A stretch of DNA of 64,000 nucleotides from Paenibacillus sp. FSL R7-0337 (GTDB lineage: Bacteria; Bacillota; Bacilli; Paenibacillales; Paenibacillaceae), in contig NZ_CP150218.1 of NCBI RefSeq assembly GCF_037969875.1, positions 7,564,001 through 7,628,000 on the forward strand, in the 5' to 3' direction. Positions 22,576-44,002 of the stretch are shown here, piece after piece; position 1 is the stretch's first letter, and each line of letters begins with the position of its first letter. Below the pieces are notes generated by a model. The model made no database searches. It was not told where the DNA came from and saw only the letters and a program-made list of their open reading frames with translations. The position numbers were made by a program, and so were the translations under genes.

Positions 22576-24462
22576 TTGAATTGGCTCGGATCTTTGCAGC
22601 AGTTGGGCAGAGCCATTATGCTTCCTACCATGGTGCTTCCGGCGGCAGCTATCCTGCTGAGTCTGGGCAGCTTACCGTGGTCTGCATGGGGACTTTCTTC
22701 GGTATCCGAAGTGACGACGTACGCGGGGCAAGGAATATTCTATTTCATGCCTTATTTGTTTGCTGTCGGTGTTGCGTGGGGGTTGTCCAATCAGGCCGGA
22801 CCGGCCGGACTGGCCGCACTCGCAGGGATGTTCACTTATGACCGGATTGTGTCCAACATGGGAGACGGGGCTGTACAGCCTGCAACATTAATTGGGATTA
22901 TCCTTGGGATTGTAGCCGGTGTAGCGCATAACCGGTTTAAGAATATCAAGCTGCCGGAGGCGATCCAGTTTTTTGGAGGGTCGCGTTTTGTTTTGCTGTT
23001 CATGGGCTTATTCTCGGCGTTATTCGCCTGGGTCATGCTCGGAGTGTCACCGCTCTTGCAGGAGCTACTCAATGAGCTGTTCAGAGTAGTGCAGGTGACC
23101 GGCGGGTATGGAGTGTTTGTCTACGGGGTGCTATACAGGGTGCTGACGGCCTTTGGCCTGCACCATATTCTGAATAATGTGTTCTGGTTCCAATTGGGCT
23201 CCTTTACGACGCCTGACGGCAGTGCGGTCGTACAGGGGGATTTGCCGCGCTTTTTTGCCGGCGACCCTACAGCAGGTGTGTTCATGGCCGGGCTGTTCCC
23301 GATTATGATGTTCGCTCTGCCGGCAATTGCCTTTGCGATCATTCAGGAAGCACGCGAGGACCTCAAGCCCAAGATCAAGAAGACTTTTTTGCGTGCAGCT
23401 TTGGTGTGCTTTCTGACCGGCGTGTCGGAGCAGATTGAATTTGCCTTCCTGTTCGCGTCGCCGTATTTGTTTGCGCTGCATGTGGTCATGTCCGGGCTTG
23501 CGATGGTGCTGACCTACTCGCTCGGGATTCATCACGGTTTCTCCTATTCGGCGGGGACCATCGACTTCTTCCTCAACATGCATCTGTCCCAGCGGGCTTG
23601 GCTGCTGATTCCGATCGGGATCGGCTATGGCATTGTCTATTATAACGTGTTCCGCTGGGCGATCCGCCGGTTCCAGATACCTACGCCGGGCCGCGAGGAA
23701 GGCTCTGAACTGGGCGACTGGGCGGGCAATATCCCGTATCAGGCTCCGCTGATTCTGGAGGCGCTGGGCGGCAAGGAGAATATTGTGCAGGTTCAGGCCT
23801 GCATCACCCGGCTGAGATTAACGGTGCATAATGACCGCTTCATAGATACAGGGGCGCTTAAGGGGCTGGGTTCCGCAGGTATTATTAAGCTGGGCGGGGG
23901 CAATGTGCAGGTCGTCTTCGGGACGTATTCGGAGCTGATCCGTGAGGAGATTGACAAGCTGATGCTGCGCGATCTGCCGCAGGTGCTGTTCAGTGCGCCG
24001 ATCCAGGGGCGTATGATGCCGATTGAAGAGGTGCCGGATCATATTTTTGCCGCGAAGCTGGTGGGGGATGGAGTGGCCTTTGTCCCGGAAAAGGGAGAGC
24101 TGGTCTCGCCCGTATTCGGCAAGGTGATGCACGTATACCCTACAATGCACGCAGTGGGCATAGCTACGCCCGAAGGGCTCGAGGTGCTCATGCATATCGG
24201 GATTGATACTTCGCAGCTTAAGGGGCCGTTTGAGGCGCTTGTACAGGAAGGTGACAGCGTGGAGCCGGGGCAGCTGCTGGTCAAGTTTGATCTGGCCTAC
24301 TTGAAGGAGCATGCCGCTTCACTGGCGACACCGATGGTGATTACCAACCCGGACCGGGTCAAATCCTGGAGCTATGCGCCATTCAAAAACGTGAAAAAGG
24401 GGCAGTCTTCCGTCATGTCCGTGGTACTACATGAAAGCAATGTTGGAGGGATCGAAGCATGA
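22576..24462 (+). CDS. PTS transporter EIICBA (glucose/N-acetylglucosamine family)
   Basis: A 628-residue phosphotransferase permease that imports and phosphorylates a hexose or amino sugar. Domain order: EIIC (residues 1-370, about ten membrane segments, with GLHHILNNVFWFQLG and LTGVSEQIEFAFLF), then EIIB with Cys409 in VQACITRLRL, then EIIA with His540 in VLMHIGIDT. Both phosphorylation sites are intact. Sequence resembles the PtsG/NagE branch; glucose versus GlcNAc cannot be decided. The start is TTG 22576 after AAAGGAGAGG. The stop overlaps the ATG of the enzyme I gene by 4 nt (ATGA), so the two are translationally coupled. No HPr gene lies in the operon. Confidence 0.92.
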   Translation: MNWLGSLQQLGRAIMLPTMVLPAAAILLSLGSLPWSAWGLSSVSEVTTYAGQGIFYFMPYLFAVGVAWGLSNQAGPAGLAALAGMFTYDRIVSNMGDGAVQPATLIGIILGIVAGVAHNRFKNIKLPEAIQFFGGSRFVLLFMGLFSALFAWVMLGVSPLLQELLNELFRVVQVTGGYGVFVYGVLYRVLTAFGLHHILNNVFWFQLGSFTTPDGSAVVQGDLPRFFAGDPTAGVFMAGLFPIMMFALPAIAFAIIQEAREDLKPKIKKTFLRAALVCFLTGVSEQIEFAFLFASPYLFALHVVMSGLAMVLTYSLGIHHGFSYSAGTIDFFLNMHLSQRAWLLIPIGIGYGIVYYNVFRWAIRRFQIPTPGREEGSELGDWAGNIPYQAPLILEALGGKENIVQVQACITRLRLTVHNDRFIDTGALKGLGSAGIIKLGGGNVQVVFGTYSELIREEIDKLMLRDLPQVLFSAPIQGRMMPIEEVPDHIFAAKLVGDGVAFVPEKGELVSPVFGKVMHVYPTMHAVGIATPEGLEVLMHIGIDTSQLKGPFEALVQEGDSVEPGQLLVKFDLAYLKEHAASLATPMVITNPDRVKSWSYAPFKNVKKGQSSVMSVVLHESNVGGIEA

Positions 24463-26225
24463 TACAAGGCATAGGCGCCGCAGCAGGTGTTGCCATCGGG
24501 AAGGCCTTTGTCTTGCCGAACTGGGAATGGAGTCTGCCGGACACCCAGGTCAATCCGGTGGATCTGGCGAAGGAGTTCGAACGGTTGTACGAAGGCATTC
24601 GAACCTCCAAGGACGAAATCGAGTTTATCAAAAAAGAATTCCGCGAGGTCGTCGGACCAGAGGAATCGAGTATTTTCGATGCCCATCTGGCAATTCTGGA
24701 TGATCCGGTGTTCATGAGCGAAATCCGCGGCATTATCGAACGCCAATACAAGGCGGCCGAGGTGGCGGTCAAGGAAGCGATCGACCACTTCGTGGCGATG
24801 TTCGATTTGCTCGACGATGAATATATGAAGGAGCGGGCTGTGGACATTAAGGATGTCGGTAACCGCCTGCTGAAGCATCTCCTGGGTGCGCCTGAGGTCA
24901 CTCTGCCGTCGGATACCCAGCCGTACATCCTGGTAGCGAAGGAGTTGTCCCCCTCACAGCTGGCGCATTTGAATCCGGCGTATGTGCTGGGCATCGTGAC
25001 GATGATGGGCGGCAAAACCTCGCATTCCTCCATCATGGCCCGTGCGCTCGGCATTCCGCTGGTGGCGGGCCTGGAGAACAAGATCCTGACTCCTATCCAG
25101 ACAGGGGACATGCTGGTGCTCGATGGGGAGACCGGAGCGGTCATGATTCATCCGGATGAATCCACACTTCTTGACTTCAACACCAGACGCGCGAAGCAGC
25201 AGCGGAAGCGGGAACAATTGGAGCTGCTTGCAACCGTTGAAGCGGTGACGAAGGACGGTGTGTCTCTGCGGCTGGCCGGCAATATCAGTTCCGTGAAGGA
25301 GCTGAATATGGCGCTGAAATACGGGGCCGAGGGAGTGGGGCTGTTCCGCACAGAGTTTCTGTACATGGACCGCAGTTCTTTTCCGACAGAGGAGGAGCAG
25401 TTCGAAGTCTACAAGCTGGTCGCGGAAAAAGTCGGCAAGGAGTCCGTGGTCATCCGCACGCTTGATATCGGGGGAGACAAGCATCTGGATTACTTCCAGC
25501 TGCCGGAGGAGCAGAACCCGTTCCTTGGCTACCGGGCCATCCGGATCAGCTTGGACCGCAAGGACATGTTCAAAACCCAGATTACAGCCATTCTGCGGGC
25601 CAGTCATTACGGCAATGTCCGGATGATGTTCCCGATGATCTCTTCTGTCGAAGAGGTGCAGGCGGCCAAAGCGGTGCTGAACGAGGTGAAAAGTGAGCTG
25701 GACAGCCGGGGAGTACCGTATAACCGCGAGATGAAGGTAGGTATAATGATCGAGGTTCCGGCCGCAGTGATGATTGCCGACCTGCTGGCAGAGGAAGTGG
25801 ACTTCTTCAGTATCGGCACGAATGATTTGGTGCAGTATGTACTGGCTGTGGACCGGATGAATGAGCAGATTGCCCATATGTATCATCCGTACCATCCGGG
25901 AGTGCTGCGCATGATCCGCATGACGGTGGATGCGGCACGCAGCGTAGGCATCGATGTCAGTGTATGCGGCGAGATGGCCGCAGACGAGCGCTCACTGCCG
26001 CTCTGGCTGGAGCTGGGGATCGGTGTGCTGAGCATGTCGCCGCAAGCCTTGCTGAAGGTGAAGCACCGTACGCTGAACACCCTGGCTTCTGAGGCCAGAG
26101 AGATTGCGAAGGTCTGCTTCCGCAACCGCACCAGCTCGGAGACAGAGGAGCAGCTTACAGCTTTTGTAGGACGGAGCGGATTCCCGCTGGGCGCTGGCGG
26201 AGATTCCAAAGAGAAGACGTCATAG
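24459..26225 (+). CDS. ptsI: PTS enzyme I (phosphoenolpyruvate-protein phosphotransferase)
   Basis: Takes phosphate from PEP and passes it to HPr at the head of the PTS chain. 588 residues. The phosphorylated His189 lies in GGKTSHSSIMAR. The PEP-binding barrel shows GVGLFRTEFLYM, IRTLDIGGDKHLDYF, NPFLGYRAIRI, MIEVPAA, IGTNDLVQY and the Cys-containing VSVCGEMA. It extends beyond the usual about 572 residues by a short tail (GRSGFPLGAGGDSKEKTS). ATG overlaps the preceding EIICBA stop. In Bacillus ptsI follows ptsH; here it follows a permease gene, so HPr must come from elsewhere. It ends before a terminator and a type B repeat. Confidence 0.95.
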   Translation: MIQGIGAAAGVAIGKAFVLPNWEWSLPDTQVNPVDLAKEFERLYEGIRTSKDEIEFIKKEFREVVGPEESSIFDAHLAILDDPVFMSEIRGIIERQYKAAEVAVKEAIDHFVAMFDLLDDEYMKERAVDIKDVGNRLLKHLLGAPEVTLPSDTQPYILVAKELSPSQLAHLNPAYVLGIVTMMGGKTSHSSIMARALGIPLVAGLENKILTPIQTGDMLVLDGETGAVMIHPDESTLLDFNTRRAKQQRKREQLELLATVEAVTKDGVSLRLAGNISSVKELNMALKYGAEGVGLFRTEFLYMDRSSFPTEEEQFEVYKLVAEKVGKESVVIRTLDIGGDKHLDYFQLPEEQNPFLGYRAIRISLDRKDMFKTQITAILRASHYGNVRMMFPMISSVEEVQAAKAVLNEVKSELDSRGVPYNREMKVGIMIEVPAAVMIADLLAEEVDFFSIGTNDLVQYVLAVDRMNEQIAHMYHPYHPGVLRMIRMTVDAARSVGIDVSVCGEMAADERSLPLWLELGIGVLSMSPQALLKVKHRTLNTLASEAREIAKVCFRNRTSSETEEQLTAFVGRSGFPLGAGGDSKEKTS

Positions 26226-30063: not shown

Positions 30064-31074
30064 TTGACGGTAACCATTTACGATGTAGCTCGAGAAGCAG
30101 GCGTATCTATGGCTACGGTATCACGGGTTGTGAATAATAACCCCAACGTGAAACCGCAGACCCGGAAGAAGGTTTTTGAAGCGATTGAGCGTTTGGGCTA
30201 TCGTCCGAATGCTGTGGCGAGAGGTCTCGCCAGCAAGAAAACGACAACCGTAGGGGTTGTTATCCCTGATATCTCAAACTCGATTTTTGCGGAAATTGCA
30301 CGCGGGATTGAAGATATTGCCAATATGTATCACTACAACATTATTCTCTGTAACGCTGACAAGCGCAAAGAGAAAGAGATTCGTGTCATTAACACACTGC
30401 TCGAGAAGCAGGTGGACGGGCTGCTGTTCATGGGCGGAACCGTTACGGAAGAGCATATTCAGGCGTTCCAGACCTCTGCTGTGCCTATCGTACTCTGTGC
30501 GACCCGCGATGAGAAGGGAACGTATCCTTCCGTGGATATCGACCACGAGACGGCTGCATTTGATGCAGTGAATACGCTGATCCGCCACGGACACCGTGAG
30601 ATCGCCATGATCAGCGGCACACTGCAGGACCCTGCGAACGGATATGCCCGGTTCCACGGCTACAAGAAGGCGCTGGAAGCGGCAGGTATCGAGTATCAGG
30701 AGGATCTGGTGCGCATCGGTAACTATCGATACGAATCCGGTGTCGAAGCGATGAAGTACTTCCTGGGTCTGAAGAAGAAGCCGACAGCTATCTTTGCCGC
30801 TACCGATGAGATGGCAATTGGCGCCATTCACAGTATTCAGGATGAAGGCCTTAAGGTACCGGATGACTTCTCGATTATCAGTGTAGACAACATCCGGATG
30901 GCTTCGATGGTTCGTCCGCTCCTCACTACTGTAGCACAGCCGATGTATGATCTCGGTGCTGTAGCGATGAGACTGCTGACGAAGCTGATGAAGAAGGAGA
31001 CCGTTGAGAATCCGCGGGTAATTTTGCCGCATGAGACCATTCTTCGTCTGTCTGTCAATCATGTCAACAAATAA
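30064..31074 (+). CDS. ccpA: Catabolite control protein A (LacI family)
   Basis: Global regulator of carbon metabolism that binds cre operators together with Ser46-phosphorylated HPr or Crh. 336 residues. The DNA-binding head is [34 protein letters not shown] with the hinge [24 protein letters not shown]. The core is a periplasmic-binding-protein fold with [37 protein letters not shown] and [22 protein letters not shown], closely CcpA-like throughout. The start is TTG 30064 with GGAGAG 7-8 nt upstream. The order ccpA ... acuA/acsA ... rpsD matches the Bacillus region. A cre-like site overlaps its promoter. Confidence 0.96.
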
Positions 31075-42019: not shown

Positions 42020-43135
42020 ATGAATGATCCCCGGATTCAAAAGCTTGCGGCGAACCTTGTAGGTTACTCCGTAAACGTACAGCCTGGCGAGAACGTGCTC
42101 GTCGAAATGATCGGCAGTGAACGAGATTTGATCAAAGCTGTTGTGGAGGAAGTGGGTAAGGCCGGAGGCCGTGCATTTGTGCAGCTGACCGACCGCACAG
42201 TTCTGCGCAGTATGCTCAAATATGCAACACCTGAAGGAATCAAGACCTGGGCAGAGATCGATTTGAACCGGATGAAGCAGATGGACTGCTATATCGGCAT
42301 CCGTGCCGGTGAGAATGTCAATGATCTGTCCGATGTGCCGGAAGAGAACATGAAGCTCTACAACTCCCTGTATTCCCACCCGGTACATAGCGAACAGCGC
42401 GTTAAGCACACCAAATGGGTGGTGCTGCGTTACCCTAACGCCAGTATGGCCCAGCTCGCCAACACGAGCACAGAGGCCTTTGAGGACTTTTACTTCGAAG
42501 TCTGCAACCTGGATTATGCCAAAATGGACAAAGCCCAGGATTCGCTGGCTGAGCTTATGCGCAGAACCGACAAGGTGCGTATCGCAGGTCCCGGAACAGA
42601 CCTTACATTCTCCATCAAGGGAATCGGGGCGGAGAAATGCTCCGGCCAGAAAAATATTCCGGACGGAGAAGTGTACAGCGCGCCTGTCCGTGATTCCGTG
42701 AATGGAACGATCAGCTATAATGCCGCATCAATCTACAACGGGGTGACCTTCGAGAATGTGAAGTTCACTTTCGAGAACGGCCGGATCGTAGAGGCTACCA
42801 GCAATGATAGCGCACGGCTGAATGAAATTCTGGATTCCGATGACGGCGCGCGCCATATCGGCGAGTTCGCCATCGGCTTCAACCCTTATATTTTGCATCC
42901 GATGAAGGATATTCTGTTCGATGAGAAAATTGCCGGCAGTCTGCACTTCACACCGGGCCAGGCTTATGATGTGACGGATAACGGCAACCGTTCGTCCATT
43001 CACTGGGACCTCGTGCTGATTCAGCGACCTGATTACGGCGGCGGCGAAATTTACTTCGACGATGTGCTGATCCGTAAGGATGGGATTTTTGTGGTGCCGG
43101 AACTGGAAGGTCTGAATCCGGAGAACCTGAAATAA
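42020..43135 (+). CDS. M29 family aminopeptidase
   Basis: Metallo-aminopeptidase of the AmpS/PepS/AP-T group, which removes N-terminal residues from peptides using two metal ions. 371 residues. Landmarks: SVNVQPGENVLVEM near the start, KVRIAGPGTDLTFSIKG, NIPDGEVYSAPVRDSVNGTISYN with one metal Glu, GEFAIGFNP with another, and HWDLVLIQRPDYGGGEIYFDDVLIRKDG at the end. GGAAGGAAGAGAG precedes ATG. It is soluble, probably intracellular. The next gene has its own promoter. Confidence 0.93.
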   Translation: MNDPRIQKLAANLVGYSVNVQPGENVLVEMIGSERDLIKAVVEEVGKAGGRAFVQLTDRTVLRSMLKYATPEGIKTWAEIDLNRMKQMDCYIGIRAGENVNDLSDVPEENMKLYNSLYSHPVHSEQRVKHTKWVVLRYPNASMAQLANTSTEAFEDFYFEVCNLDYAKMDKAQDSLAELMRRTDKVRIAGPGTDLTFSIKGIGAEKCSGQKNIPDGEVYSAPVRDSVNGTISYNAASIYNGVTFENVKFTFENGRIVEATSNDSARLNEILDSDDGARHIGEFAIGFNPYILHPMKDILFDEKIAGSLHFTPGQAYDVTDNGNRSSIHWDLVLIQRPDYGGGEIYFDDVLIRKDGIFVVPELEGLNPENLK

Positions 43136-43226
43136 AATGGTACAAAAGCGGTGATTCCAAAAGCACGTAATGGCCTGTTTCCAAGAAACACCTTGCGTGA
43201 GTAAGCGGATTCAATGTATCATGGAA

Positions 43227-43255
43227 TTGGTAACAAGTGAACATAAGTATATAAT
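43227..43255 (+). promoter_or_regulatory. Promoter of the HPr-like gene
   Basis: TTGGTA (43227-43232), a 17-nt spacer and TATAAT (43250-43255), followed 20 nt later by the ATG. Confidence 0.7.
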
Positions 43256-43275
43256 CAAGTTGCGGAGGGATTCCT

Positions 43276-43518
43276 ATGTCCAACAATGCGGCAATCGTGG
43301 ATATTGCACAGACAGCAAGCCAATTTAATTCATCTATCGTTCTTCAAGCGGACAACAAGTACATTGATGTTAAGAGCATCCTGGGCTTGTTCACTACTCT
43401 GGTATCCAGCCAAAGCTACGAGCTGCATGTACATGGCACAGATGCCGAGGAAGCCAAGAAAGCCATGAGCGAAGTTTTTGCCAAACACAATTTGAATTTT
43501 ACAGTAGTAGCAGAGTAA
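43276..43518 (+). CDS. HPr-like protein with the regulatory serine but without the His15 region
   Basis: An 80-residue HPr-fold relative. QTASQFNSSI and DVKSILGLFTT line up with HPr QTASKYDADV and NLKSIMGVMSL at a constant offset of 12, so Ser34 equals HPr Ser46, the HprK site used for CcpA co-repression. Residue 3, Asn, falls where His15 should be, and Ala5 replaces Arg17. The first strand of HPr, about 12 residues, does not exist: an in-frame TAA lies eight codons upstream of ATG 43276. It therefore cannot carry phosphate in the sugar relay. By analogy with Crh, which has Gln15, a regulatory role with CcpA is possible but unproven. It has its own promoter, GGAGGG site and terminator. Confidence 0.85.
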   Translation: MSNNAAIVDIAQTASQFNSSIVLQADNKYIDVKSILGLFTTLVSSQSYELHVHGTDAEEAKKAMSEVFAKHNLNFTVVAE

Positions 43519-43533
43519 TTCCAGTTTCTTCTC

Positions 43534-43567
43534 AGACGTCCGGCCTTGCGGCTGGGCGTCTTTGCTG
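43534..43567 (+). terminator. Terminator of the HPr-like gene
   Basis: CAGACGTCCGGCC-TTGC-GGCTGGGCGTCT forms a stem with G-T pairs, followed by TTTG. Confidence 0.7.
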
Positions 43568-43699
43568 TGCAGCGGGGTGATTTTGCAGGAACTTCAGGAA
43601 TAACCCAAACTGAAATCTTGTATTAGGTCCTAATTTCGACTAATATTAAGAATAATAAGCAATCGCTGCTGTAACTTTTGGACATGGGGGGGAAAATGC

Positions 43700-44002
43700 A
43701 TGACTTCATCGGATTTGCAGGAACAGCTCAATATCAAAGCAATCAATCTTCTTCAAGAAGATGCCGATAAAATTCAGAAGCTCATTGAAGTACAGATGGA
43801 GAATTTGGCAACCCGTTACTGCCCTCTCTATGAGGAAGTGCTGGATACCCAGATGTACGGCTTCTCCAGAGAGGTCGATTTTGCGGTCAGAGCGGGGCTG
43901 GTGCCTGAGCTTACAGGCAAGCAGGTGCTGAGCAAGCTGGAACGCAATTTGGCTGTACTGTATGAGGCGCTGAACAAGAAGGCTGAGGAGCGGGAGATGT
44001 AA
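43700..44002 (+). CDS. ylaN: YlaN family protein
   Basis: A 100-residue helical protein matching Bacillus Yla[55 protein letters not shown]. YlaN is needed for growth under iron limitation in Bacillus and Staphylococcus and is reported to bind iron and interact with Fur; that role is transferred from the family. The [22 protein letters not shown] block is the most conserved part and is complete. GGGGGG precedes ATG. The gene is followed by a type A repeat and a terminator. Confidence 0.93.

Follow-up and report, generated by a model that had tools for sequence, protein, structure and literature searches.

Gene organization and genomic context

The window, which is the whole stretch of 64,000 nucleotides that was analysed, contains an open reading frame at 43276-43518 that encodes the HPr-like protein MSNNAAIVDIAQTASQFNSSIVLQADNKYIDVKSILGLFTTLVSSQSYELHVHGTDAEEAKKAMSEVFAKHNLNFTVVAE. 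The gene lies between genes for a family M29 peptidase and YlaN (Table 1), and this arrangement (42020-44002: M29 peptidase, HPr-like, YlaN) is an order-wide gene order in Paenibacillales. In the first set of 80 loci, YlaN follows the HPr-like gene in every case (80/80), and in 75 of them a co-directional M29 peptidase gene lies upstream of it. In Staphylococcus aureus, YlaN (Fpa) binds iron(II) and lifts the repression exerted by Fur (PMC11559061). As the first-pass annotation had stated, the window also carries ccpA (30064-31074; TIGR01481, 496 bits versus 442) and a PTS operon lacking an HPr gene, consisting of a ptsG-like EIICBA gene (22576-24462) and ptsI (24459-26225).

Table 1. Coordinates of the HPr-like gene, its control signals, protein elements and related genes
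Feature	Position	Strand	Remarks
HPr-like gene (P0001)	43276..43518	+	ATG start; 80 aa plus stop
Peptidase family M29	42020..43135	+	conserved upstream neighbour
YlaN/DUF1507	43700..44002	+	conserved downstream neighbour
Probable promoter TTGCGT-18-TATCAT	43193..43222	+	inferred by eye from upstream regions of 80 relatives
Shine-Dalgarno GGAGGG	43264..43269	+	distance to ATG conserved
Terminator-like hairpin GACGTCCGGCC-TTGC-GGCTGGGCGTC-TTT	43535..43563	+	between the HPr-like gene and ylaN; by eye
Helix A (residues 3-14)	43282..43317	+	N3 = HPr His15 position; A5 = Arg17 position
Helix B (residues 32-37)	43369..43386	+	K33-S34-I35-L36-G37 = HPr Lys45-Ser46 site
S34 codon	43375-43377		
Extra C-terminal strand (residues 74-77/78)	43495..43509	+	conserved; absent from HPr
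Full-length HPr (L081)	L081:1489-1755 = G000:C1:4355746-4356012		

An in-frame TAA (43252-43254) stands seven codons 5' of the ATG, in agreement with the upstream stop reported earlier, and limits the open frame to 87 codons. Among 80 relatives, the protein start is conserved as MS..NN.AIV and preceded by a conserved GGAGG ribosome site, and no conserved codons were found upstream of the start; 110 of the 111 distinct family proteins are 79-85 aa long. The short N-terminus is therefore genuine and common to 291 of 296 Paenibacillales genomes. A TAT(C/G)AT box, recognized by eye, is present about 50-60 bases 5' of the start codon in nearly all relatives, and a second promoter-like pair from a signal scan (43227-43255) showed no conservation among them. 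The hairpin downstream of the gene is absent from the listing of the same scan, which demands a longer T run.

Homology to HPr and predicted structure

The protein belongs to the HPr family, as first proposed, matching Pfam PTS-HPr PF00381 (E 3.8e-8, 33.7 bits against a cut-off of 23) with residues 9-69 aligned to profile positions 20-80 of 81. Solved HPr and Crh structures were also matched by sequence in a phmmer search of the PDB, the best being 1y4y (E 1.7e-7; query 10-73 on HPr 22-86). Overall, the protein corresponds to HPr from approximately residue 13 onward. Scores to the NCBIfam models for HPr (TIGR01003, 33.8 bits) and Crh (PRK13782, 30.7 bits) fall under their cut-offs of 47.9 and 123, respectively, and a PHROGs search gave no useful match. 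The phmmer alignment confirmed the offset of 12 relative to HPr, which becomes 13 after a one-residue gap, and placed QTAS on HPr 24-27 and K33-S34-I35-L36 on HPr 45-48. Accordingly, Ser46 is retained as S34, whereas the His15 position is occupied by Asn and the Arg17 position by Ala, all as annotated before. In addition, the Met48 and Met51 positions are Leu and Phe.

AlphaFold2 models of the window protein (pLDDT 87.9) and of a 76%-identical relative (85.7) agree on a helix at 3-14, strands at 20-25 and 28-31, a helix at 32-37/38, a strand at 47-53, a helix at 57-70 and a last strand at 74-77/78. The predicted structure thus contains the HPr fold (helices A-C, strands B-D), and the leading structural matches are all HPr or Crh (Z ~10, rmsd ~2.1 Å over 74-75 residues, model 1-75). 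Folds that match the full model, including its C-terminal end, are other small alpha/beta domains of the alpha-beta-beta-alpha-beta kind. These matches are of middling strength: Z 6.2-6.3 for a designed mini-binder, Z 4.5-4.8 for the C-terminal domains of zinc transporters and for NifU-like domains, and Z ~4 for a ribosomal protein. A metal site, suggested by H51/H53 and by the zinc-transporter and NifU-like matches, was considered but set aside, as both distant relatives lack H51, one of them also lacks H53, and Z scores of 4-5 are common and middling.

The C-terminal extension past the end of HPr, which the first-pass annotation overlooked, is conserved (NxTVVxE) and shows a strict pattern across the family, with residues 73, 75, 77 and 78 hydrophobic in 97-100% of proteins and residues 74 and 76 polar. 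HPr has an antiparallel sheet with the strand order A-D-B-C, so a strand joined to helix C by a short, three-residue loop is expected to run parallel to strand D and opposite to strand A. Based on this topology, the C-terminal strand probably occupies the edge left empty by strand A, in parallel orientation to strand D. The earlier statement that strand A is lacking therefore holds for the order of the sequence, where the confirmed start and the uniform length leave no room for an N-terminal strand, but the models indicate that a conserved C-terminal strand probably takes its place. A conserved strand in the tail points to a remodelled HPr, which is more than a truncated one. The predicted exchange of edge strands between chain ends would be a clean natural case of fold remodelling in a very small domain.

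Distribution and conservation in Paenibacillales

Members of the family were detected (E below 1e-25) in all Paenibacillales genomes searched except G002, G011, G017, G028 and G164. Outside the order, clear members occur in two genomes only (G452 and G435) among about 400 class-wide and about 400 phylum-wide genomes. Near-universality within the order, together with dN/dS values of 0.015-0.026 between close relatives, indicates that the protein is functional and selected. Second family copies (E ~1e-28) occur at two loci, L181 (G020:C17) and L182 (G027:C22).

Residues D31, K33, S34, L36, G37, L38, L50, G54, D56, A60 and F68 are invariant in all 111 distinct proteins, which include the two distant relatives from outside the order; conservation of Ser34 was thus complete. 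The His15 position is Asn in 91 of 111 proteins and His in only two (not His in 109), indicating that it is not catalytic, and full-length homologues bearing His15, which were sought as evidence against the short form, did not occur. The Arg17 position is Ala in 92/111, and Arg is not among its five commonest residues. The distant relatives retain the D-x-KS-x-LGL motif and have lost H51 and the conserved synteny. Their loci (L158/L179 in G452 and L159/L180 in G435) have unrelated neighbourhoods, and the G452 copy has an N-terminus about 17 residues longer, in which no similarity to HPr was noticed.

Full-length HPr and HprK proteins

The source genome harbors two full HPr genes outside the window, neither mentioned in the first-pass annotation. 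One (L081), read by eye as lying downstream of whiA, the place of crh, carries the motif GLHARP and scores above the PRK13782 cut-off. The other (L082, ptsH-type) adjoins a PTS permease gene, also by eye, and carries GIHARP. Each of the 60 order genomes examined has the L081 type, with 82-100% identity (64% in G028), whereas strong matches to the L082 type are confined to certain families. Many Paenibacillales therefore pair one His15-bearing HPr with this His-less protein, a carrier/non-carrier pair like HPr and Crh in Bacillus. The L081 type is the only near-universal full HPr of the order, on which many genomes appear to rely, and it keeps His15; this suggests that Bacillus Crh lost His15 from a gene of this whiA-linked type.

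HprK is encoded in 148 of 149 order genomes, and the lone genome without it (G028, a single, reduced genome) also lacks the HPr-like family. HprK does not require the HPr-like protein, since four of the five family-less genomes still carry it. Many Paenibacillales genomes encode a second HprK-like protein (~200-215 bits; G000:C1:3907195-3907701 in the source genome), identified in a search whose control list is incomplete, as the B. subtilis control gave no PF07475 match. This second protein was rejected as a dedicated partner because several genomes bearing the HPr-like protein have a single HprK (e.g., G109, G129, G139 and G141).

Possible functions of the HPr-like protein

Judging from its residues, the protein is unable to carry PTS phosphate, as it has lost the His15/Arg17 half-site and strand A, and the Ser46/helix-B face (DVKSILGLFTTL) is, by the same comparison, kept and hardened. 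Loss of the catalytic half and first strand with retention of the regulatory serine site suggests that it is probably a dedicated regulator, not a carrier. A literature search, in which subscription journals were thinly covered, returned no phosphorylation, interaction or other paper on this protein, which is real and conserved but apparently uncharacterised.

It is quite possible, if somewhat short of an even chance, that the protein is a non-PTS paralogue of HPr that is under HprK control and acts mainly on a partner other than CcpA. HprK would phosphorylate Ser34 at high levels of glycolytic intermediates, and the phosphorylated (or unphosphorylated) protein would use helix B to bind a regulator or metabolic enzyme, in the manner of Crh, although its principal partner would probably differ from CcpA. 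The invariance of D31, K33, S34, L36, G37 and L38 and the near-constant presence of HprK favor such regulation; counting against it, the parts of helix A around His15-Arg17, which contact HprK and CcpA in HPr, are changed. The fuller proposal of a naturally remodelled HPr, in which strand A and the catalytic loop were deleted, a reversed C-terminal strand was gained instead, and HprK control is directed at a non-CcpA partner throughout the order, is rather unlikely in its entirety.

A phosphorylation-independent HPr-fold adaptor, in which Ser34 caps helix B, the invariant face serves as the docking site for a fixed partner (perhaps the product of a conserved neighbour) and HprK is irrelevant, is a tenable but doubtful alternative. 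Ser34 is no more conserved than D31, K33, L36-L38, L50, G54, D56, A60 and F68, the strands (including H51 and H53) are conserved as well, and synteny with YlaN and the M29 peptidase is strict. However, the conserved patch is centred on the helix-B side that faces HprK and CcpA, HprK is nearly always present, and the distant relatives retain D-x-KS-x-LGL despite losing H51 and the synteny. E. coli HPr, which is not known to be regulated by HprK, also has Ser46 (PDB 1opd is its S46D mutant), so the conservation of Ser34 is no proof of phosphorylation, and the serine may be retained because it caps the N-terminal end of helix B.

The earlier interpretation as a further-reduced, Crh-like CcpA partner, in which the Ser34-phosphorylated form would serve as a CcpA corepressor, is improbable. 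In the complexes of HPr and Crh with CcpA, Arg17 and the His15 loop touch CcpA, and both are absent here; moreover, Met48 and Met51 are replaced by Leu and Phe, and the Crh locus is held by another HPr with both phosphorylation sites. These features stand against the retention of Ser46, Ile47 and the helix-B face, the presence of ccpA and hprK in the genome, and the shared use of one CcpA site by HPr-Ser46-P and Crh-Ser46-P (PMC4591507). With a His15-bearing HPr at the whiA locus, Arg17 lost and the serine found in E. coli HPr too, the description of the protein as a CcpA partner of the Crh kind is unsupported.

For the origin of the extra strand, a simple circular permutation, in which strand A of HPr would have been transferred unaltered from the N-terminal to the C-terminal end of the chain, is very improbable. 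The strand does come after helix C, with which HPr ends, and the tail NFTVVAE shows similarity to strand A of the ptsH-type protein (shuffle p 0.036), but the resemblance disappears against the other HPr (p 0.39), the direction expected for the strand is opposite to that of strand A, and the full-length fold matches are alpha-beta-beta-alpha-beta. An N-terminus shorter than that of HPr could suggest a sequencing error, a wrong start or a gene in decay, but this is refuted and practically excluded by the shared start and length (79-85 aa in 110 of 111) throughout an order, the conserved ribosome site and a dN/dS of ~0.02.

Comparison with HPr and Crh

In carbon catabolite control of Firmicutes, two HprK substrates have been described, HPr and Crh. 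An order-wide third HPr-like protein, incapable of PTS transfer yet with an invariant Ser46 site, would add a further output to the HprK switch in bacteria that are employed in soil, plant and industrial biology.

HPr (PtsH) shares sequence and fold with the protein over HPr 13 to 86, including the Lys45-Ser46 helix-B site, but has the His15, Arg17 and strand A that the HPr-like protein lacks, and is without its extra C-terminal strand. Bacillus Crh is likewise an HPr paralogue that has lost His15, retains Ser46 and occurs alongside HprK and CcpA. However, Crh is complete, strand A included, and has retained Arg17, and its gene lies downstream of whiA, whereas that of the HPr-like protein lies between the M29 peptidase gene and ylaN. 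Orthology with Crh failed on both the PRK13782 score (30.7 versus 123 bits) and the whiA-linked gene, which encodes another protein. Crh swaps its first strand between monomers, showing that strand A is detachable (PMC3724859). In contrast to the strand-swapped Crh dimer, the HPr-like chain has no N-terminal strand, and its own C-terminal segment probably supplies the substitute.
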